A stretch of DNA of 64,000 nt from Sunxiuqinia elliptica (GTDB lineage: Bacteria > Bacteroidota > Bacteroidia > Bacteroidales > Prolixibacteraceae). The stretch is from NCBI RefSeq assembly GCF_900113005.1, contig NZ_FONW01000002.1, positions 558,001 through 622,000 of the forward strand, given 5' to 3'. The notes beneath the pieces are model-generated. The model made no database searches. It worked only from the letters and a program-made list of their open reading frames with translations, and had not been told where the DNA came from. The position numbers were made by a program, and so were the translations under genes. This document shows, piece after piece, positions 58,243-63,357 of the stretch (its first letter is position 1; the number at the start of each line of letters is the position of its first letter).

Positions 58243-58653
58243 TTAACCTCTTCTGAAAAAACGGCCCAATTCAAACTTCCCTCCGCCAAATACCAAAATT
58301 GTAATGTATACAATCAGGTATAATAAAGCCATTTCTTTACGTTGAAAAGGATCTGCTCCATGGACGTAGAAGGCAGCAACGGCCATGGTCGCAATCAGCG
58401 GAAGGGAGGCTAACCGAGTACCGATTCCGAGGATTAGCAATACAGAACACAAAAATTCTGCAAAAACAGCTAATATGAGCGAAAGGGTTTGTCCAATTCC
58501 CAGAGGGTCGGCAAATTGAGTGCTTCCTTCAACGAGTTTTAAAAACTTTGGAATTCCATGCGTTAGCATAAAGGCTCCTGCAGAAACTCTGAAAAGGAGT
58601 AACCAAATATTAACGATGGTATCATTGGTGCGTGGTCCTAATAGTCTTGCCAT
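58243..58653 (-). CDS. DoxX-family membrane protein
   Basis: The start at 58653 (MARLLGPRTNDTIVN, 136 aa) is preferred because the family sequence begins there; an ATG at 58695 would add 14 residues. Four hydrophobic helices follow, including RVSAGAFMLTHGIPKF and LILAVFAEFLCSVLLILGIG with the typical GAFMLTHGIPK motif. DoxX proteins are small inner-membrane proteins, some linked to quinone or thiosulfate metabolism or redox stress; the role here is unknown. It is transcribed away from the ilv leader region. Confidence 0.85.
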   Translation of the reverse strand: MARLLGPRTNDTIVNIWLLLFRVSAGAFMLTHGIPKFLKLVEGSTQFADPLGIGQTLSLILAVFAEFLCSVLLILGIGTRLASLPLIATMAVAAFYVHGADPFQRKEMALLYLIVYITILVFGGGKFELGRFFRRG

Positions 58654-58874
58654 AATTGAATTTTTTTGCGAAAATAATGAATCACTTTTTTCCAACGATT
58701 AAATATTTGAAATAGTTTACAACGAGTGAAAAAAAACATCTTCTTGTTGAAAATTGACTGAATGACTGTCCTATAACAAGTCGTTCAAGCTCTTTTCTGC
58801 TTCTATTTTAATGAATAAAGACTGCTAAAACTGCTAATTTTTAGAAATAATTCCGGTTTTGCTTTCAATTTAGT

Positions 58875-58904
58875 TTTGTGTTTTCGAATTAATTCCTACA
58901 TTTG
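58875..58904 (+). promoter_or_regulatory. Promoter of the ilv leader and operon
   Basis: TTTG (58875-58878), an 18-bp spacer and TACATTTG (58897-58904) match the Bacteroidota consensus in full. The start would lie near 58911, about 16 bases before the first leader ATG. It is the only good match found in the 530 bp before ilvD, so the whole attenuator region should be on one transcript. Confidence 0.75.
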
Positions 58905-58926
58905 CTTCATTAATAATTGAAAACGA

Positions 58927-58992
58927 ATGAAAATTCAGGCTATCATACTTAACGTCATTATTCTTCTCGTGGTCATTTCGCAAGCGAAGTGA
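58927..58992 (+). CDS. ilv leader peptide 1
   Basis: A 21-codon reading frame, ATG to TGA. It starts MKIQAIILN and continues VIILLVVI, then SQAK. Twelve of 21 residues are Ile, Leu or Val (6 Ile, 3 Leu, 3 Val), with eight in a row at codons 10-17 (58954-58977). It is the sensing peptide of attenuator 1. Its stop codon lies in the 5' arm of the antiterminator. It should be translated only as a regulator. Confidence 0.85.
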   Translation: MKIQAIILNVIILLVVISQAK

Positions 58993-59031
58993 GGATGTCG
59001 TACGTTGGTATAACCGATAGCCATTCTCATT
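58988..59031 (+). promoter_or_regulatory. Antiterminator helix of attenuator 1
   Basis: The 10-base segment 58988-58997 (AGTGAGGATG) pairs with 59022-59031 (CATTCTCATT), 10 bp with two G-U pairs. The 3' arm overlaps the left arm of terminator 1, so the two structures exclude each other. The 5' arm includes the leader stop codon, so a ribosome terminating there would block the antiterminator and let the terminator form. A ribosome stalled on the Ile/Leu/Val run leaves it free. Confidence 0.7.
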
Positions 59032-59049
59032 AGGGGGAATGGCTTTTTT
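59019..59049 (+). terminator. Attenuator 1 (intrinsic terminator)
   Basis: AGCCATTC (59019-59026) pairs with GAATGGCT (59037-59044), extended by a U-G and a C-G pair, then TTTTTT to 59049. It follows leader 1 by about 26 bases and precedes leader 2. Together with the antiterminator it forms a classical attenuator. Confidence 0.85.
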
Positions 59050-59070
59050 CATTTATAACAATAGCATTTT

Positions 59071-59130
59071 ATGGAACGTTTTTCTTCAATTCACTTGGTC
59101 ATTCTAGTCGTCATTCTTAGATTTCACTGA
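59071..59130 (+). CDS. ilv leader peptide 2
   Basis: A second leader frame of 19 codons, ATG to TGA, beginning MERFSSIH, then LVILVVIL, then RFH. Nine of 19 residues are Ile, Leu or Val, eight of them consecutive at codons 9-16 (59095-59118). Its sequence outside that run differs from leader 1. It starts 21 bases after the T-tract of terminator 1 and serves attenuator 2. Its stop codon overlaps the 5' arm of the second antiterminator. Confidence 0.85.
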   Translation: MERFSSIHLVILVVILRFH

Positions 59131-59176
59131 GAAAGGCCAGGGATTGTTGAACAAATGATATTCGAAAGCCTTTCTC
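59128..59176 (+). promoter_or_regulatory. Antiterminator helix of attenuator 2
   Basis: GAGAAAGGC (59129-59137) pairs perfectly, 9 bp, with GCCTTTCTC (59168-59176). GAGAAAGG also occurs as the right arm of the terminator (59181-59188), so CCTTTCTC has two identical partners and the two helices exclude each other. The first copy contains the last two bases of the leader 2 stop codon (59128-59130), as in attenuator 1. Confidence 0.72.
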
Positions 59177-59197
59177 TACAGAGAAAGGTTTTTTTTT
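59169..59197 (+). terminator. Attenuator 2 (intrinsic terminator)
   Basis: CCTTTCTC (59169-59176) pairs with GAGAAAGG (59181-59188) around TACA, then nine Ts (59189-59197). It lies 28 bases before the ilvD start. Confidence 0.88.
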
Positions 59198-59225
59198 AAG
59201 CAAGAACGAAAAAATTGAGATAGAA

Positions 59226-61055
59226 ATGCAGAAGAAACTAAGATCAGCAACAACTACCGAGGGCCGGAAAATGGCAGGAGCCCGAAGCTTATGGCGGGCG
59301 AATGGGGTTAAAGAAGAGCAATTTGGCAAACCCATGATTGCCATTGTAAACTCGTTCACGCAGTTTGTTCCGGGGCATGTTCATTTGCATCATATCGGGC
59401 AGGAATTAAAAGCCTTGATCGAAAAGAGAGGCTGTTTTGCCGCTGAGTTCAATACCATAGCGATTGATGATGGGATTGCGATGGGGCATGATGGCATGTT
59501 GTATTCACTCCCTTCACGCGACGTTATTGCAGATAGTGTTGAGTACATGTGCAATGGACACAAGGTGGATGCGATGGTATGCATTTCAAATTGTGATAAA
59601 ATTACACCGGGAATGATGATGGCTGCTATGCGGTTAAATATTCCAGCCATTTTTGTGTCTGGTGGCCCGATGGAAGCTGGGAAAATTGATGAGAAATCAT
59701 ATGACTTGGTGGATGCTATGGTGATGGCTGCTGATGACAGTGTTTCAGATGAAACAATTTTGCAGGTAGAGCAGGAAGCTTGTCCTACTTGCGGTTCTTG
59801 TTCCGGCATGTTTACGGCAAACTCGATGAACTGTTTGGCTGAAGCCTTGGGATTGGCTTTGCCTGGAAATGGAACGATTGTGGCAACTCATGCCAATCGG
59901 AAAAAGTTGTTTGAAGAAGCGGCTGAACGTATTGTGGATATCACTTACGATCATTATCAGAATGGGAACGAGCGTGTTACTCCTCGTGGCATTGCAACTC
60001 GTGCGGTTTTTGAGAATGCCATGAAGTTGGATATTGCTATGGGAGGTTCGACCAATACGGTGCTGCATATTTTGGCTATTGCCCGCGAAGCAGGGGTCGA
60101 TTTCACAATGGCTGATATCGACCAGTTGTCTCGTAAAACACCAAACCTGTGCAAGGTGGCTCCTAACTCTCACTTTCACATTGAAGATGTGAACAGAGCA
60201 GGTGGTATTCTTGGAATTTTGGCAGAAATGGATCGGGCAAACCTATTGGATACAACAGTTTCTCGTGTTGATGGAAATAGCCTGGCAGAAGCCATTCAAA
60301 AATTTGACGTAACAAAAACGGATGCTTTGGAAGAAGCGATCAAAAAATATAAATCAGCACCGGGTGGAGTTCGGACAACGGTGATGGGTTCGCAGGAAAG
60401 CTATTACAAAGAGCTGGACCTCGACCGGGAAAATGGCTGTATCCGTTCGTTTGAACATGCCTATAGCAAGGATGGTGGTTTGGCTGTCTTGTTTGGCAAT
60501 ATTGCTCGTAAAGGATGTATCATCAAAACTGCCGGAGTTGATCCTTCGGTATATACATTCAACGGAACGGCTCGTGTATTTGAATCTCAGGAAGATGCTG
60601 TTAACGGAATCTTGGGCGATGCGGTTCAGGCTGGCGATGTGGTAATTATCCGCTATGAAGGACCGAAGGGTGGTCCTGGTATGCAGGAAATGTTGTATCC
60701 AACCTCTTACATCAAGTCGATGAAGTTGGATAAAGCTTGTGCATTGATAACTGACGGACGGTTCTCAGGAGGAACCTCGGGCTTGTCAATAGGGCATGTT
60801 TCGCCAGAAGCAGCCGGAGGTGGTGAAATCGCATTGATTGAAGATGGAGACCGGATTGAAATAAGCATTCCAGAGCGGAGTATTAACCTGATTGTAACAG
60901 ACGAAGAGCTTGAGAAAAGACGAGCCAAGCAGGAGGCTCGGGGGAAGGCGGCTTATACGCCTGTGAGCCGTAACCGTCAAGTAAGTCGGGCATTAAAAGC
61001 TTATGCCAGCTTGGTCTCATCAGCTGATCAAGGCGCAATTCGATTAATTGATTAA
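59226..61055 (+). CDS. ilvD: Dihydroxy-acid dehydratase
   Basis: A 609-aa enzyme that dehydrates 2,3-dihydroxy-isovalerate and -methylvalerate in Val/Ile synthesis. The iron-sulfur ligand region includes [17 protein letters not shown] with Cys123, and the [11 protein letters not shown] motif (186-195). The C-terminal half carries [20 protein letters not shown]. The length is close to the long IlvD type (616 aa in E. coli). It is the first structural gene after the tandem attenuators and ilvB follows after 24 bp. Confidence 0.97.
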
Positions 61056-61079: not shown

Positions 61080-62780
61080 ATGGCAACAAAGAGAATTACT
61101 GGTTCTGAAGCCGTTATTCTTTCACTTTTAGAAGAAGGCGTTGATACGATCTTTGGGTATCCGGGCGGGGCAATTATGCCTGTTTACGACGCCCTGTATG
61201 ATTATGACAAAAAAGTAACTCACATCTTGACCCGGCATGAGCAAGGCGCAGTCCATGCGGCTGAGGGATATGCTAAAGTAACTGGAAAAGCAGGGGTCTG
61301 CTTTGCAACTTCAGGGCCTGGAGCGACTAACCTGATCACAGGGATTGCGGATGCAATGATTGATTCCATTCCACTCGTGTGTATCACCGGGCAAGTTGCT
61401 TCTCCTTTGCTGGGGACAGATGCTTTTCAAGAGTCAGATGTTGTTGGTATCTCGATGCCAATTACCAAGTGGAATTACCAGGTAACAAACGCAGAAGAAA
61501 TTCCGGAAGCAATTGCCAAGGCTTTCTACATTGCCCAATCTGGCCGCCCTGGACCTGTTTTGTTGGATATTTCTAAAGATGCACAGTTTCAGGAGTTGGA
61601 GTTCGAGTATAAGAAGTGTACAAAGATAAGGTCTTATATCCCAGAACAGCCCGTTGATCCTTTTAAGATAAAAGAAGCAGCCGAATTAATTGATCAAGCG
61701 AAAAAGCCTCTTTTATTATTTGGACAAGGGATTATTATCGCACAAGCAGAGGATGAGTTGAAGGCATTCATCGAAAAAACGGGCATTCCCGCTGCATGGA
61801 CTTTGTTAGGCTTATCTGCCTTGCCAACAGATCATCCCTTGAATGTTGGAATGCTTGGAATGCATGGTAACTATGGACCAAACGTTAAAACCAATGAAGC
61901 TGATTTGATTATTGCTGTAGGAATGCGTTTCGATGACCGGGTAACGGGTAAGGTGAGTTCCTATGCCAAGAAGGCGAAAGTCGTTCATCTGGAAGTTGAC
62001 CCAGCGGAGATTGATAAAATCATCAAAACGGATGTTGCCGTGCTGGGTAATGCGAAGAAGTCATTGGCGATGCTGATCAACAATGTGAAAGATAACAAGC
62101 ATGATGATTGGGTGGCTGAATTCCGGGAGTGTGACAAAGTCGAGCGCGAAAAGGTAATTAACAAAGATGTACATCCGGAGAAAGAGGGTTTAACAATGGG
62201 AGAAGCTGTTCGTATTGCTTCGGAGAAAACGCAGCATAACGCAATTTTGGTAACTGATGTAGGGCAGCAGCAAATGATTGCTTCCCGATACTTTAAGTTT
62301 ACCCAATCAAAAAGCAACGTTACTTCCGGCGGTTTAGGAACGATGGGCTATGCCATTCCCGCTGCGTTAGGGGCTCAACTGGGCGCCAAAGATCGCACGG
62401 TATGTTGTTTTGTAGGTGATGGAGGTTTTCAAATGACCTTACAAGAGCTGGGAACAATAGTCCAAAACAAACTTCCGGTGAAAATTATTCTACTGAATAA
62501 CAACTTCTTGGGAATGGTTCGCCAGTGGCAACAGTTGTTCTTTGAAAAGCGTTATTCGTTTACAGAACTTCAAAACCCTGATTTTATTACTATTGGTAAA
62601 GGTTTCGGCATGGCAGGTCATAAAGTCACTAAACGTGAAGAGCTGTCTGATGGGATTCAGAAAATGATTGACCACGATGGACCCTATTTATTAGAAGTAG
62701 TGGTTGAGAAAGAAGATAATGTTTTCCCAATGGTTCCAACTGGGGCTTCCGTTTCCGATATTATTTTGGAAGTAAAATAG
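61080..62780 (+). CDS. ilvB: Acetolactate synthase large subunit
   Basis: A 566-aa ThDP-dependent enzyme that makes acetolactate or acetohydroxybutyrate, the first common step of Val/Leu/Ile synthesis. It has the catalytic-Glu segment RHEQGAVHAAEGYAKVTGKAG, TSGPGATNLITGIADA, the FAD-related middle domain and the ThDP motif GDGGFQMTLQELGTIVQNKLPVKIILLNN (in part). It is 24 bp after ilvD and 34 bp before its regulatory subunit, so all three form one operon. Confidence 0.97.
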   Translation: MATKRITGSEAVILSLLEEGVDTIFGYPGGAIMPVYDALYDYDKKVTHILTRHEQGAVHAAEGYAKVTGKAGVCFATSGPGATNLITGIADAMIDSIPLVCITGQVASPLLGTDAFQESDVVGISMPITKWNYQVTNAEEIPEAIAKAFYIAQSGRPGPVLLDISKDAQFQELEFEYKKCTKIRSYIPEQPVDPFKIKEAAELIDQAKKPLLLFGQGIIIAQAEDELKAFIEKTGIPAAWTLLGLSALPTDHPLNVGMLGMHGNYGPNVKTNEADLIIAVGMRFDDRVTGKVSSYAKKAKVVHLEVDPAEIDKIIKTDVAVLGNAKKSLAMLINNVKDNKHDDWVAEFRECDKVEREKVINKDVHPEKEGLTMGEAVRIASEKTQHNAILVTDVGQQQMIASRYFKFTQSKSNVTSGGLGTMGYAIPAALGAQLGAKDRTVCCFVGDGGFQMTLQELGTIVQNKLPVKIILLNNNFLGMVRQWQQLFFEKRYSFTELQNPDFITIGKGFGMAGHKVTKREELSDGIQKMIDHDGPYLLEVVVEKEDNVFPMVPTGASVSDIILEVK

Positions 62781-62814: not shown

Positions 62815-63357
62815 ATGAAACAGGAATTTATAATCACGATATATTCAGAAAACCATATAGGTTTATTAAACCGGATTACCATCAACTTTACGCGCCGGAA
62901 AATCAATATCGAAAGCCTGACCGTTTCTGCGTCAGCAATAAAAGGGGTGTCGAAATTCACCATTGTTGTCAATGAAACAGCCGATCGGGTCAGGAAAGTT
63001 GTTGGACAGCTTGAAAAAGTGGTTGACGTATTGAAAGCTTTCTATCACACCAACGATGAAATGGTGTTTCAGGAAATTGCTCTTTACAAAGTACAAACAG
63101 ACACCTTGTACGATAGTGACCAGGTAGAGCGAATGGTTCGTAAAGCGGGGGCTCGTATTTTGGAGATTACCCGTGAATACACAGTGATTGAAAAAACAGG
63201 TCACAAAGAAGAAACGCAGGAGTTGTTTGACGAGTTGAATCAATTTGGCGTCCTTCAGTTTATTCGTTCAGGCCGGGTTGCCATTACGCGTGATCCTATT
63301 GAGCGGCTTTCAGAGTTCTTGAAAGAACGAGACAATTTGCTGAGTCAGATAGACTAG
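62815..63357 (+). CDS. ilvN: Acetolactate synthase small regulatory subunit
   Basis: A 180-aa subunit with an N-terminal ACT domain (EFIITIYSENHIGLLNRITINFTRRKINIESL in parts) and a C-terminal domain typical of IlvH/IlvN. It binds valine and stimulates and inhibits IlvB. It is the last gene in the visible ilv operon; a terminator follows. ilvC and leu genes are not adjacent. Confidence 0.94.
   Translation: MKQEFIITIYSENHIGLLNRITINFTRRKINIESLTVSASAIKGVSKFTIVVNETADRVRKVVGQLEKVVDVLKAFYHTNDEMVFQEIALYKVQTDTLYDSDQVERMVRKAGARILEITREYTVIEKTGHKEETQELFDELNQFGVLQFIRSGRVAITRDPIERLSEFLKERDNLLSQID

Follow-up and report, generated by a model that had tools for sequence, protein, structure and literature searches.

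Two predicted leader-peptide attenuators in series before ilvD-ilvB-ilvN in Sunxiuqinia elliptica, with related units in Bacteroidales

The ilv and leu operons of enterobacteria carry leader-peptide attenuators, one per operon, and leader-peptide attenuation is usually drawn in this way, as one unit per operon. T-boxes, by comparison, bind uncharged tRNA directly. A comparative survey of attenuators was reportedly made by Lopatovskaya et al. in 2010. A leader-peptide attenuator is also described for ilvBNC of Corynebacterium glutamicum (PMC11857589). The leader of mgtCBR in Salmonella has tandem attenuators, in which two leader ORFs sense ATP and proline and the hairpins are unlike intrinsic terminators (PMC3641672). 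The mefA/msrD operon has two macrolide-responsive leader peptides, the second of which regulates msrD only (PMC10314930). Tandem T-box riboswitches occur in ilv and leu operons of Bacillota, and a pseudo-cooperative response is expected from tandem riboswitches of identical ligand (PMC12452182). In Flavobacterium psychrophilum, also of Bacteroidota, structured 5' leaders are reported with hints that amino acid operons are under leader-peptide attenuation (PMC9723704).

We analysed a 64,000-nt stretch of the Sunxiuqinia elliptica genome (the window), in which two such units precede ilvD-ilvB-ilvN. Like the enterobacterial ilv and leu operons and C. glutamicum ilvBNC (PMC11857589), this locus combines a short Ile/Leu/Val ORF, alternative hairpins, a terminator, and cognate genes. 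Unlike those attenuators, it has two full units, belongs to a member of Bacteroidota, and has an antiterminator strand that starts at the stop codon. What it has in common with mgtCBR is a leader mRNA that carries two short ORFs (PMC3641672), but here both leaders read Ile/Leu/Val and both have intrinsic terminators. The likeness to the tandem T-boxes of Bacillota lies in the same operon, the same kind of signal, and repeated units (PMC12452182), whereas the sensor here would be the translating ribosome. In mefA/msrD there are likewise two ribosome-mediated attenuators on one operon, but there the response is to macrolides and the second attenuator serves msrD only (PMC10314930). The F. psychrophilum report differs in that tandem units and ilv are both absent from its section on 5' cis-regulatory RNAs (PMC9723704). 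By analogy, the pair in the window would behave as tandem riboswitches that share a ligand do, using the classical attenuation machinery.

The initial annotation of the window had suggested that such a tandem was undescribed. Among the matches listed in a search of titles and abstract openings in the open-access literature, with subscription work mostly outside its scope, we found no ilv operon with two leader-peptide attenuators and no such leaders for Prolixibacteraceae. The suggestion has to be narrowed, since two-leader tandems are known from mgtCBR (PMC3641672) and tandem T-boxes are known on ilv (PMC12452182).

The ilv leader of the window

The leader is about 300 nt long and lies between ilvD (59226) and an HvfX-like ORF on the opposite strand (58243-58695), whose NCBIfam match is below its cut-off. 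The biosynthetic genes for the same amino acids, ilvD, ilvB, and ilvN, directly follow both units, and ilvC and leuA lie downstream on the same contig, within 15 kb. The features are as follows.

58875 to 58904, plus strand: putative Bacteroidota-type promoter, with TTTG at 58875-58878, 18 nt, and TAnnTTTG as TACATTTG at 58897-58904
58927 to 58992, plus strand: leader peptide 1, MKIQAIILNVIILLVVISQAK, with eight consecutive codons V-I-I-L-L-V-V-I and a UGA stop
58973 to 58992, plus strand: unit 1 candidate for a 1:2 (protector) hairpin, TCATTTCG-CAAG-CGAAGTGA, spanning the stop codon in the minimum-energy fold
58988 to 58997, plus strand: antiterminator 1, 5' strand AGTGAGGATG, which includes the UGA; partner CATTCTCATT at 59022-59031
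59019 to 59049, plus strand: terminator 1, with its stem at 59019-59044 and U-run at 59044-59049; type A arm, AGCCATTCTC / GGGGAATGGCT
59071 to 59130, plus strand: leader peptide 2, MERFSSIHLVILVVILRFH, with eight consecutive codons L-V-I-L-V-V-I-L and a UGA stop
59129 to 59137, plus strand: antiterminator 2, 5' strand GAGAAAGGC, beginning at the second base of the UGA; partner GCCTTTCTC at 59168-59176
59164 to 59197, plus strand: terminator 2, with its stem at 59164-59193 and U-run at 59189-59197; type T arm, GCCTTTCTC / GAGAAAGG
59226 to 61055, plus strand: ilvD, dihydroxy-acid dehydratase (NCBIfam NF009103, TIGR00110)
61080 to 62780, plus strand: ilvB, acetolactate synthase large subunit (NCBIfam TIGR00118)
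62815 to 63357, plus strand: ilvN, acetolactate synthase small subunit (NCBIfam TIGR00119)

The initial annotation had read this region as promoter, leader 1, terminator 1, leader 2, terminator 2, and ilvD, with eight consecutive Ile/Leu/Val codons per leader, each stop codon in the 5' arm of its own antiterminator, and each antiterminator overlapping its terminator. All of these elements are present in that order and their coordinates hold, both leaders have the run of eight, the UGA lies inside arm 1 while arm 2 starts at the second base of its UGA, and in each unit the 3' strand of the antiterminator is part of the unit's own terminator and is common to both helices. Leader 2 starts 26 nt past the terminator 1 stem. 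The minimum-energy fold has no evident 1:2 hairpin in unit 2, and the candidate is in unit 1 alone.

To count units, we used criteria that were set after the region had been seen: an ATG, a run of at least six Ile/Leu/Val codons, a terminator score of at least 12, and an antiterminator helix score of at least 17. By these criteria the 356-nt region contains two units, while none of 2,000 dinucleotide shuffles contains any, and there are no further units on either strand of the 64-kb window. Thermodynamic folding, which had been proposed as a check, places the region 4.4 s.d. better than 200 shuffles, and the unconstrained fold has both terminators formed and neither antiterminator. A simple consensus scan lists terminator 1 and misses terminator 2, and it finds 2 terminator-like sites compared with 2.0 in shuffles.

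The same scan lists a sigma-70-like site at 58917-58946, which we rejected as the promoter of leader 1 because it overlaps the start of that leader. The likelier promoter for leader 1 is the TAnnTTTG at 58897-58904 with the TTTG at 58875-58878, which together match what we take to be the Bacteroidota-type promoter consensus (TAnnTTTG plus TTTG).

Two terminators with alternative helices would also suit tandem riboswitches, so that a ligand-binding riboswitch or an RNA-binding protein might govern both of them. Rfam at its gathering threshold has no match in the window and matched no family in any of the sequences scanned (the window and 16 Bacteroidales ilvD loci). At a lax threshold (E up to 5) the window gave 13 weak matches, all below their gathering scores and none near them, and no T-box or riboswitch aptamer fold was found in the window by Rfam. 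One of the weak matches, RF04180 (BTnc231), was dropped; the 16 Bacteroidales ilvD loci have no match to it at the gathering threshold. In the unit alignment described below, moreover, the conserved columns are leader codons and pairing arms, and we regard control by such a ligand or protein as extremely improbable.

Single and paired units in the family and order

A protein search located ilvD in 131 of 140 family genomes, and the DNA upstream of each of these 131 loci, cut short only where a contig ends, was searched with a finder that required an Ile/Leu/Val-rich ORF followed by a terminator and nothing more. Two units were found at 16 of these loci, one at 110, and none at 5. Upstream DNA is shorter than 200 nt at five of the 131 loci, and three of the loci with no unit are at contig ends (G026, with 0 nt upstream; G069, with 113 nt; and G136, with 176 nt). 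Of the other two, G019 has 900 nt of upstream DNA, and G025 has, by eye, a leader and a CCATTCTC terminator that the finder overlooked. Pairs are present in all six genomes with ilvD from the genus of the window (g1), in all four of g15, in the one genome each of g3, g23, g13, and g18, in 1 of 22 from g19, and in 1 of 4 from g12. The layout of the window, with 19 to 26 nt from the terminator 1 stem to the ATG of leader 2, is found in 12 of the 16 pairs (genera g1, g3, g15, and g23), and three further tandem genomes have a wider spacing between units. At the G036 locus (L021), positions -602 to -24 from ilvD hold two type T units that resemble each other and are separated by 315 nt; this pair is perhaps an independent repeat or a recent duplication with its own promoter.

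A set of 80 named loci, of which L050, L051, L054, and L095 are probably the same records as family genomes, includes three more pairs, from Marinifilaceae (Labilibaculum, Marinifilum, and one other member), with 19 to 20 nt between units. Some titles in this set (L109, L115) give implausible species and may be mislabelled, and they played no part in the taxonomy. At L048 there are two ORFs but the same single terminator follows both. The first set of other loci from the order (n = 13) has one unit at 10, none at 2, and two at 1, this last being a probable pair, 22 nt apart, in G058, a member of another family. A further 27 loci, taken from the genomes nearest to a Labilibaculum query out of 164 that matched it (one of the 27, G050, also belongs to the first set), have one unit at 22, none at 5, and two at 0. 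Based on these family and order counts, single attenuators are widespread across the order and pairs are exceptional.

The promoter motif accompanies the units. TAnnTTTG lies 10 to 80 nt before the first leader at 102 of the 121 family loci with enough upstream DNA, and at 68 of those 102 it lies 26 to 30 nt before the ATG, compared with a background of 405 in 2,560 random 77-nt windows. All 16 tandem loci have TAnnTTTG within 120 nt before leader 1, and at 15 of the 16 no TAnnTTTG that could be a second promoter for leader 2 was found between the units; the exception is G036, with TAnnTTTG motifs inside its 315 nt. Because the gap is short and has no promoter motif, only transcripts that read through terminator 1 would extend into leader 2. 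As a separate observation, leader 1 of the window is preceded by two TAnnTTTG motifs (58871-58904) with a spacing of 26 nt, the upstream one providing the TTTG at the -33 position. The window is one of 9 among the 12 closest pairs in which such motifs are spaced by 26 to 27 nt.

Pairing, codons, and the predicted decision in each unit

The arms of the units are either of type A or of type T and change together, and the order upstream A and downstream T is found in 15 of the 16 tandem loci. For covariation we built an alignment (A1) from 95 candidate units, of which 70 had an antiterminator at P < 0.05, 69 remained after checks for repeats and length, and 56 were aligned; 13 near-duplicate, long, or unlike rows were left out (two each from L003 and L005, the second unit of L021, and those from L018, L039, L074, L084, L088, L103, L104, and L108). 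In A1 the terminator helix has 96.3% of cells paired and 40 double-change cells, and 0 of 500 shuffles score as high. The antiterminator has 88.7% of cells paired and 23 double-change cells, with 0 of 500 shuffles as high on that measure, but it fails two of five covariation measures (199 of 500 shuffles are as high for pairs changed on both sides and 153 of 500 for further pair types), and its covariation in A1 is favoured because the rows were partly selected for antiterminator pairing (P < 0.05). Thus, the terminators covary and the antiterminators covary less strongly.

The swap test and the ribosome-mask folding used units that were not selected for antiterminator pairing. In the swap test the stop-proximal strand prefers its own terminator arm over the A/T-switched arm in 116 of 136 typed family units (22 of 22 of type A and 94 of 114 of type T, with G071 and G082 typed as T, and with the leader start and stop of unit 1 at L029 [G018] set by hand). 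The exceptions are 12 ties and 8 units in which the own arm is worse, and 19 of these 20 are in genus g19. They come from 19 of the 22 genomes of that genus (L010 plus others in the range L143 to L167) and have a type T terminator, with a stop-proximal strand that is plain type A, GAGAATGG, in eight and GAGATTGG in eleven. Over the 16 tandem loci, the mean energy of the cognate duplex is -14.0 kcal/mol in unit 1 and -16.1 kcal/mol in unit 2. For crossed duplexes the mean is -8.4 kcal/mol when strand 1 pairs with arm 2, and -11.7 kcal/mol when strand 2 pairs with arm 1. The separation of cognate from crossed pairing is incomplete: in the window, strand 2 with arm 1 reaches -12.6 kcal/mol compared with -12.0 for cognate pairing 1, in G008 the same crossed pairing reaches -20.2 kcal/mol, and in G036 (T,T) cognate and crossed pairing do not differ.

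The Marinifilaceae pairs gave 0 of 6 units at P < 0.05 (two at ~0.06) when antiterminators were sought near the stop codon. When the search started from the last Ile/Leu/Val run, candidate strands were found 10 to 14 nt after the run, and 3 of 6 units reached P < 0.05. In these pairs and in unit 2 of G058, the candidate strand, 10 to 14 nt past the run, comes before the leader stop codon, which suggests that what counts is where the strand lies with respect to the regulatory codons, and not to the stop codon.

Both leaders vary in the manner of coding sequence. In the 12 closest pairs, by raw counts that ignore kinship, the distinct variant codons in Ile/Leu/Val columns are 12 synonymous, 10 within Ile/Leu/Val, and 4 other for leader 1, and 10, 12, and 3, respectively, for leader 2, while random mutation would be expected to give about 5, 6, and 15. 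We predict that both leaders are translated. The leaders also favour codons that are rare in genes: GTC is used for 11% of Val residues across 36 ORFs of the region but for 54% in leader 1, 67% in leader 2, and 57% in single leaders, and CTT, CTC, and CTA together make up 27% of Leu codons in the 36 ORFs compared with 77 to 80% in leaders.

Codon counts, from which unit 1 of L029 (G018) and the unit of L172 (G120) were left out, give Ile 73, Leu 42, and Val 67 for tandem leader 1 (15 leaders) and Ile 51, Leu 60, and Val 51 for tandem leader 2 (16 leaders). The Ile/Leu/Val residue closest to the stop is Ile in all 12 of the leaders 1 compared and Leu in 9 of 12 leaders 2. One possible explanation for this is that each unit is tuned to different amino acids (e.g., Ile/Val versus Leu) and that the pair acts as an AND-like gate, an account that overlaps the one we prefer and differs from it in the signal. 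However, these counts come from related, non-independent genomes, and all three amino acids run in both leaders, so starvation for any one of them should stall both, and we consider such a gate unlikely. The combined reading of different aminoacyl-tRNAs that the initial annotation had offered as one outcome of the series is hardly borne out for the same reason: all three amino acids are in both leaders, with leader 2 somewhat richer in Leu.

The reading as two full leader-peptide attenuators in series is the best supported, by conservation, by covariation, and by the coding-type variation of both leaders. Based on this sequence evidence, we consider it highly probable that the pair consists of two complete ribosome-mediated attenuators on one transcript that respond to one signal, namely how far the tRNAs for Ile, Leu, and Val are charged. 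A ribosome that reaches the stop codon of either unit would cover the 5' strand of that unit's antiterminator and let the terminator form, while a ribosome stalled on the Ile/Leu/Val codons would leave that strand free, so that the antiterminator could form first, ahead of the last terminator strand, and transcription would continue. RNA polymerase would have to get past terminator 1 before any leader 2 is made, and translating leader 2 would require a ribosome of its own. Because of these two features, we infer that operon output would be proportional to the product of two read-through probabilities, which compared with one unit would give a lower basal level and a steeper response. The multiplied repression range that had been proposed for two partial terminators would fit this anatomy.

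Folding with a ribosome mask is consistent with the decision in each unit. We assumed that the mask reaches 11 nt beyond the A-site codon and folded the RNA up to the last terminator strand for 140 units (unit 1 of L029 [G018] and the unit of L172 [G120] were left out here as well). The median antiterminator probability is 0.86 to 0.87 for a ribosome stalled on the first codon of the run or on its middle codon. It is 0.73 for a stall on the last codon and 0.12 with the ribosome at the stop codon. In equilibrium folds of the full-length units, the terminator is favoured in the median in every state (0.93 to 0.97 even with a stalled ribosome), and a small number of units, unit 1 of G008 among them, keep the antiterminator when stalled. 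Since full-length equilibrium favours the terminator, antitermination must be kinetic, with the antiterminator forming first.

Origin of the pair and the same design before other genes

The ilvD tree (55 rows) is the tree of one gene, in which out-of-family labels were set by hand or by default (single-A for G040, G042, and G043 and single-T for the rest), as was one label inside the family (G025, single-A). It contains a clade of 26 with support of 98/96, which comprises 13 pairs, 12 single-T loci, and 1 single-A locus. The pairs of g13 and g18 form a separate clade (100/98), and seven single-A loci (g4, g17, and g22) form a third (100/99). The label "tandem" requires at least five changes on the starred branches of this tree. 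The simple account of the first clade is an old A-T pair from which either unit was repeatedly lost, but repeated gain of pairs may also explain it.

With single units the rule (110 of 131 family loci and 10 of 13 and 22 of 27 order loci), the unit next to ilvD might alone regulate, and the upstream unit might be a relic of duplication. An alignment across relatives, which had been put forward as a check on the pair, speaks against this. Both leaders, their stops, and their helices are kept in 12 genomes of four genera, and for unit 1 this includes the reading frame, the Ile/Leu/Val codons, the stop position, the type A pairing, and the terminator. In the same 12 genomes, leader 1 peptide is by eye at least as conserved as leader 2 peptide. 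In addition, the main pair clade of the ilvD tree includes both single-A and single-T loci, which indicates that either unit can be lost. A relic is thus quite improbable, and the double switch, being kept in the closest relatives, looks functional and not accidental.

In genus g19, the one tandem genome (G076) has an A unit and then a T unit. The 19 leaders with mismatched types described above look like A leaders fused to T terminators by deletion, although they may also have arisen by stepwise drift. Tentatively, and with slightly more doubt than confidence, we propose that the pair is a two-stage A-then-T cascade that answers to one signal and goes far back in the family, in which mostly different pairing and a second decision made after the first would give a steeper response, and that many of the single units are remnants of loss or fusion.

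A covariance model of the unit was also searched against the genome of the window and against the family. In its own genome it recovers both ilv units, a single unit ahead of leuA (E = 5e-9), and, at a cysG-cysJ locus, a leader rich in Cys and Met (E = 7.5e-5). A Cys-rich leader before cysK scores no better than E = 0.054 but is conserved in the genus. A match at E up to 0.01 is present in 139 of 140 family genomes, and some of the places among the matches listed are on contigs other than that of ilvD. The three further loci in the genome of the window are as follows.

G000:C15:631304-631410: predicted leuA attenuator (L132), 9.3 kb past the end of the window, a single Ile/Leu unit with leader MTRIHSISILSILLGILVWMRK and type A arms
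G000:C6:158037-158143, minus strand: leader before cysG-cysJ (L133), Cys/Met-rich MNFSTSVNNKMTLACTMMCMCCNLFMQKGERE plus a terminator; genus homologues L295 to L301
G000:C17:12111-12224: leader before cysK (L138), Cys-rich MKNTFLNMCYCCCMITTRGRYVE plus a terminator; genus homologues L288 to L294

L133 is followed by a short ORF without an NCBIfam match, a cysG N-terminal-type gene, and a cysJ-type gene. At both cysteine loci, a Cys-rich leader plus terminator is present in seven of seven genus genomes, and L138 looks from its sequence like a cysteine attenuator in Bacteroidota.

These cysteine loci also bear on whether the hydrophobic ORFs are instead functional small membrane peptides, with hairpins that only end separate small RNAs. 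Peptides of about 20 residues rich in Ile, Leu, and Val would resemble membrane segments, and terminated leaders would exist as small RNAs. However, the leaders favour codons that are rare in genes, the antiterminator strand lies close behind the Ile/Leu/Val codons, and the same architecture is found with Cys-rich leaders before cysteine genes, all of which make membrane peptides a very improbable explanation.

Compared across these loci, the sequences suggest that ribosome-mediated attenuation is widely used in Bacteroidales for Ile/Leu/Val, Leu, and Cys genes. Two conserved units that would respond to the same signal offer a natural system for asking whether termination in series sharpens the response to starvation, a sharpening that is also predicted for tandem riboswitches (PMC12452182). 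Relatives that carry an A unit, a T unit, both, or an apparent fusion provide ready-made comparisons.
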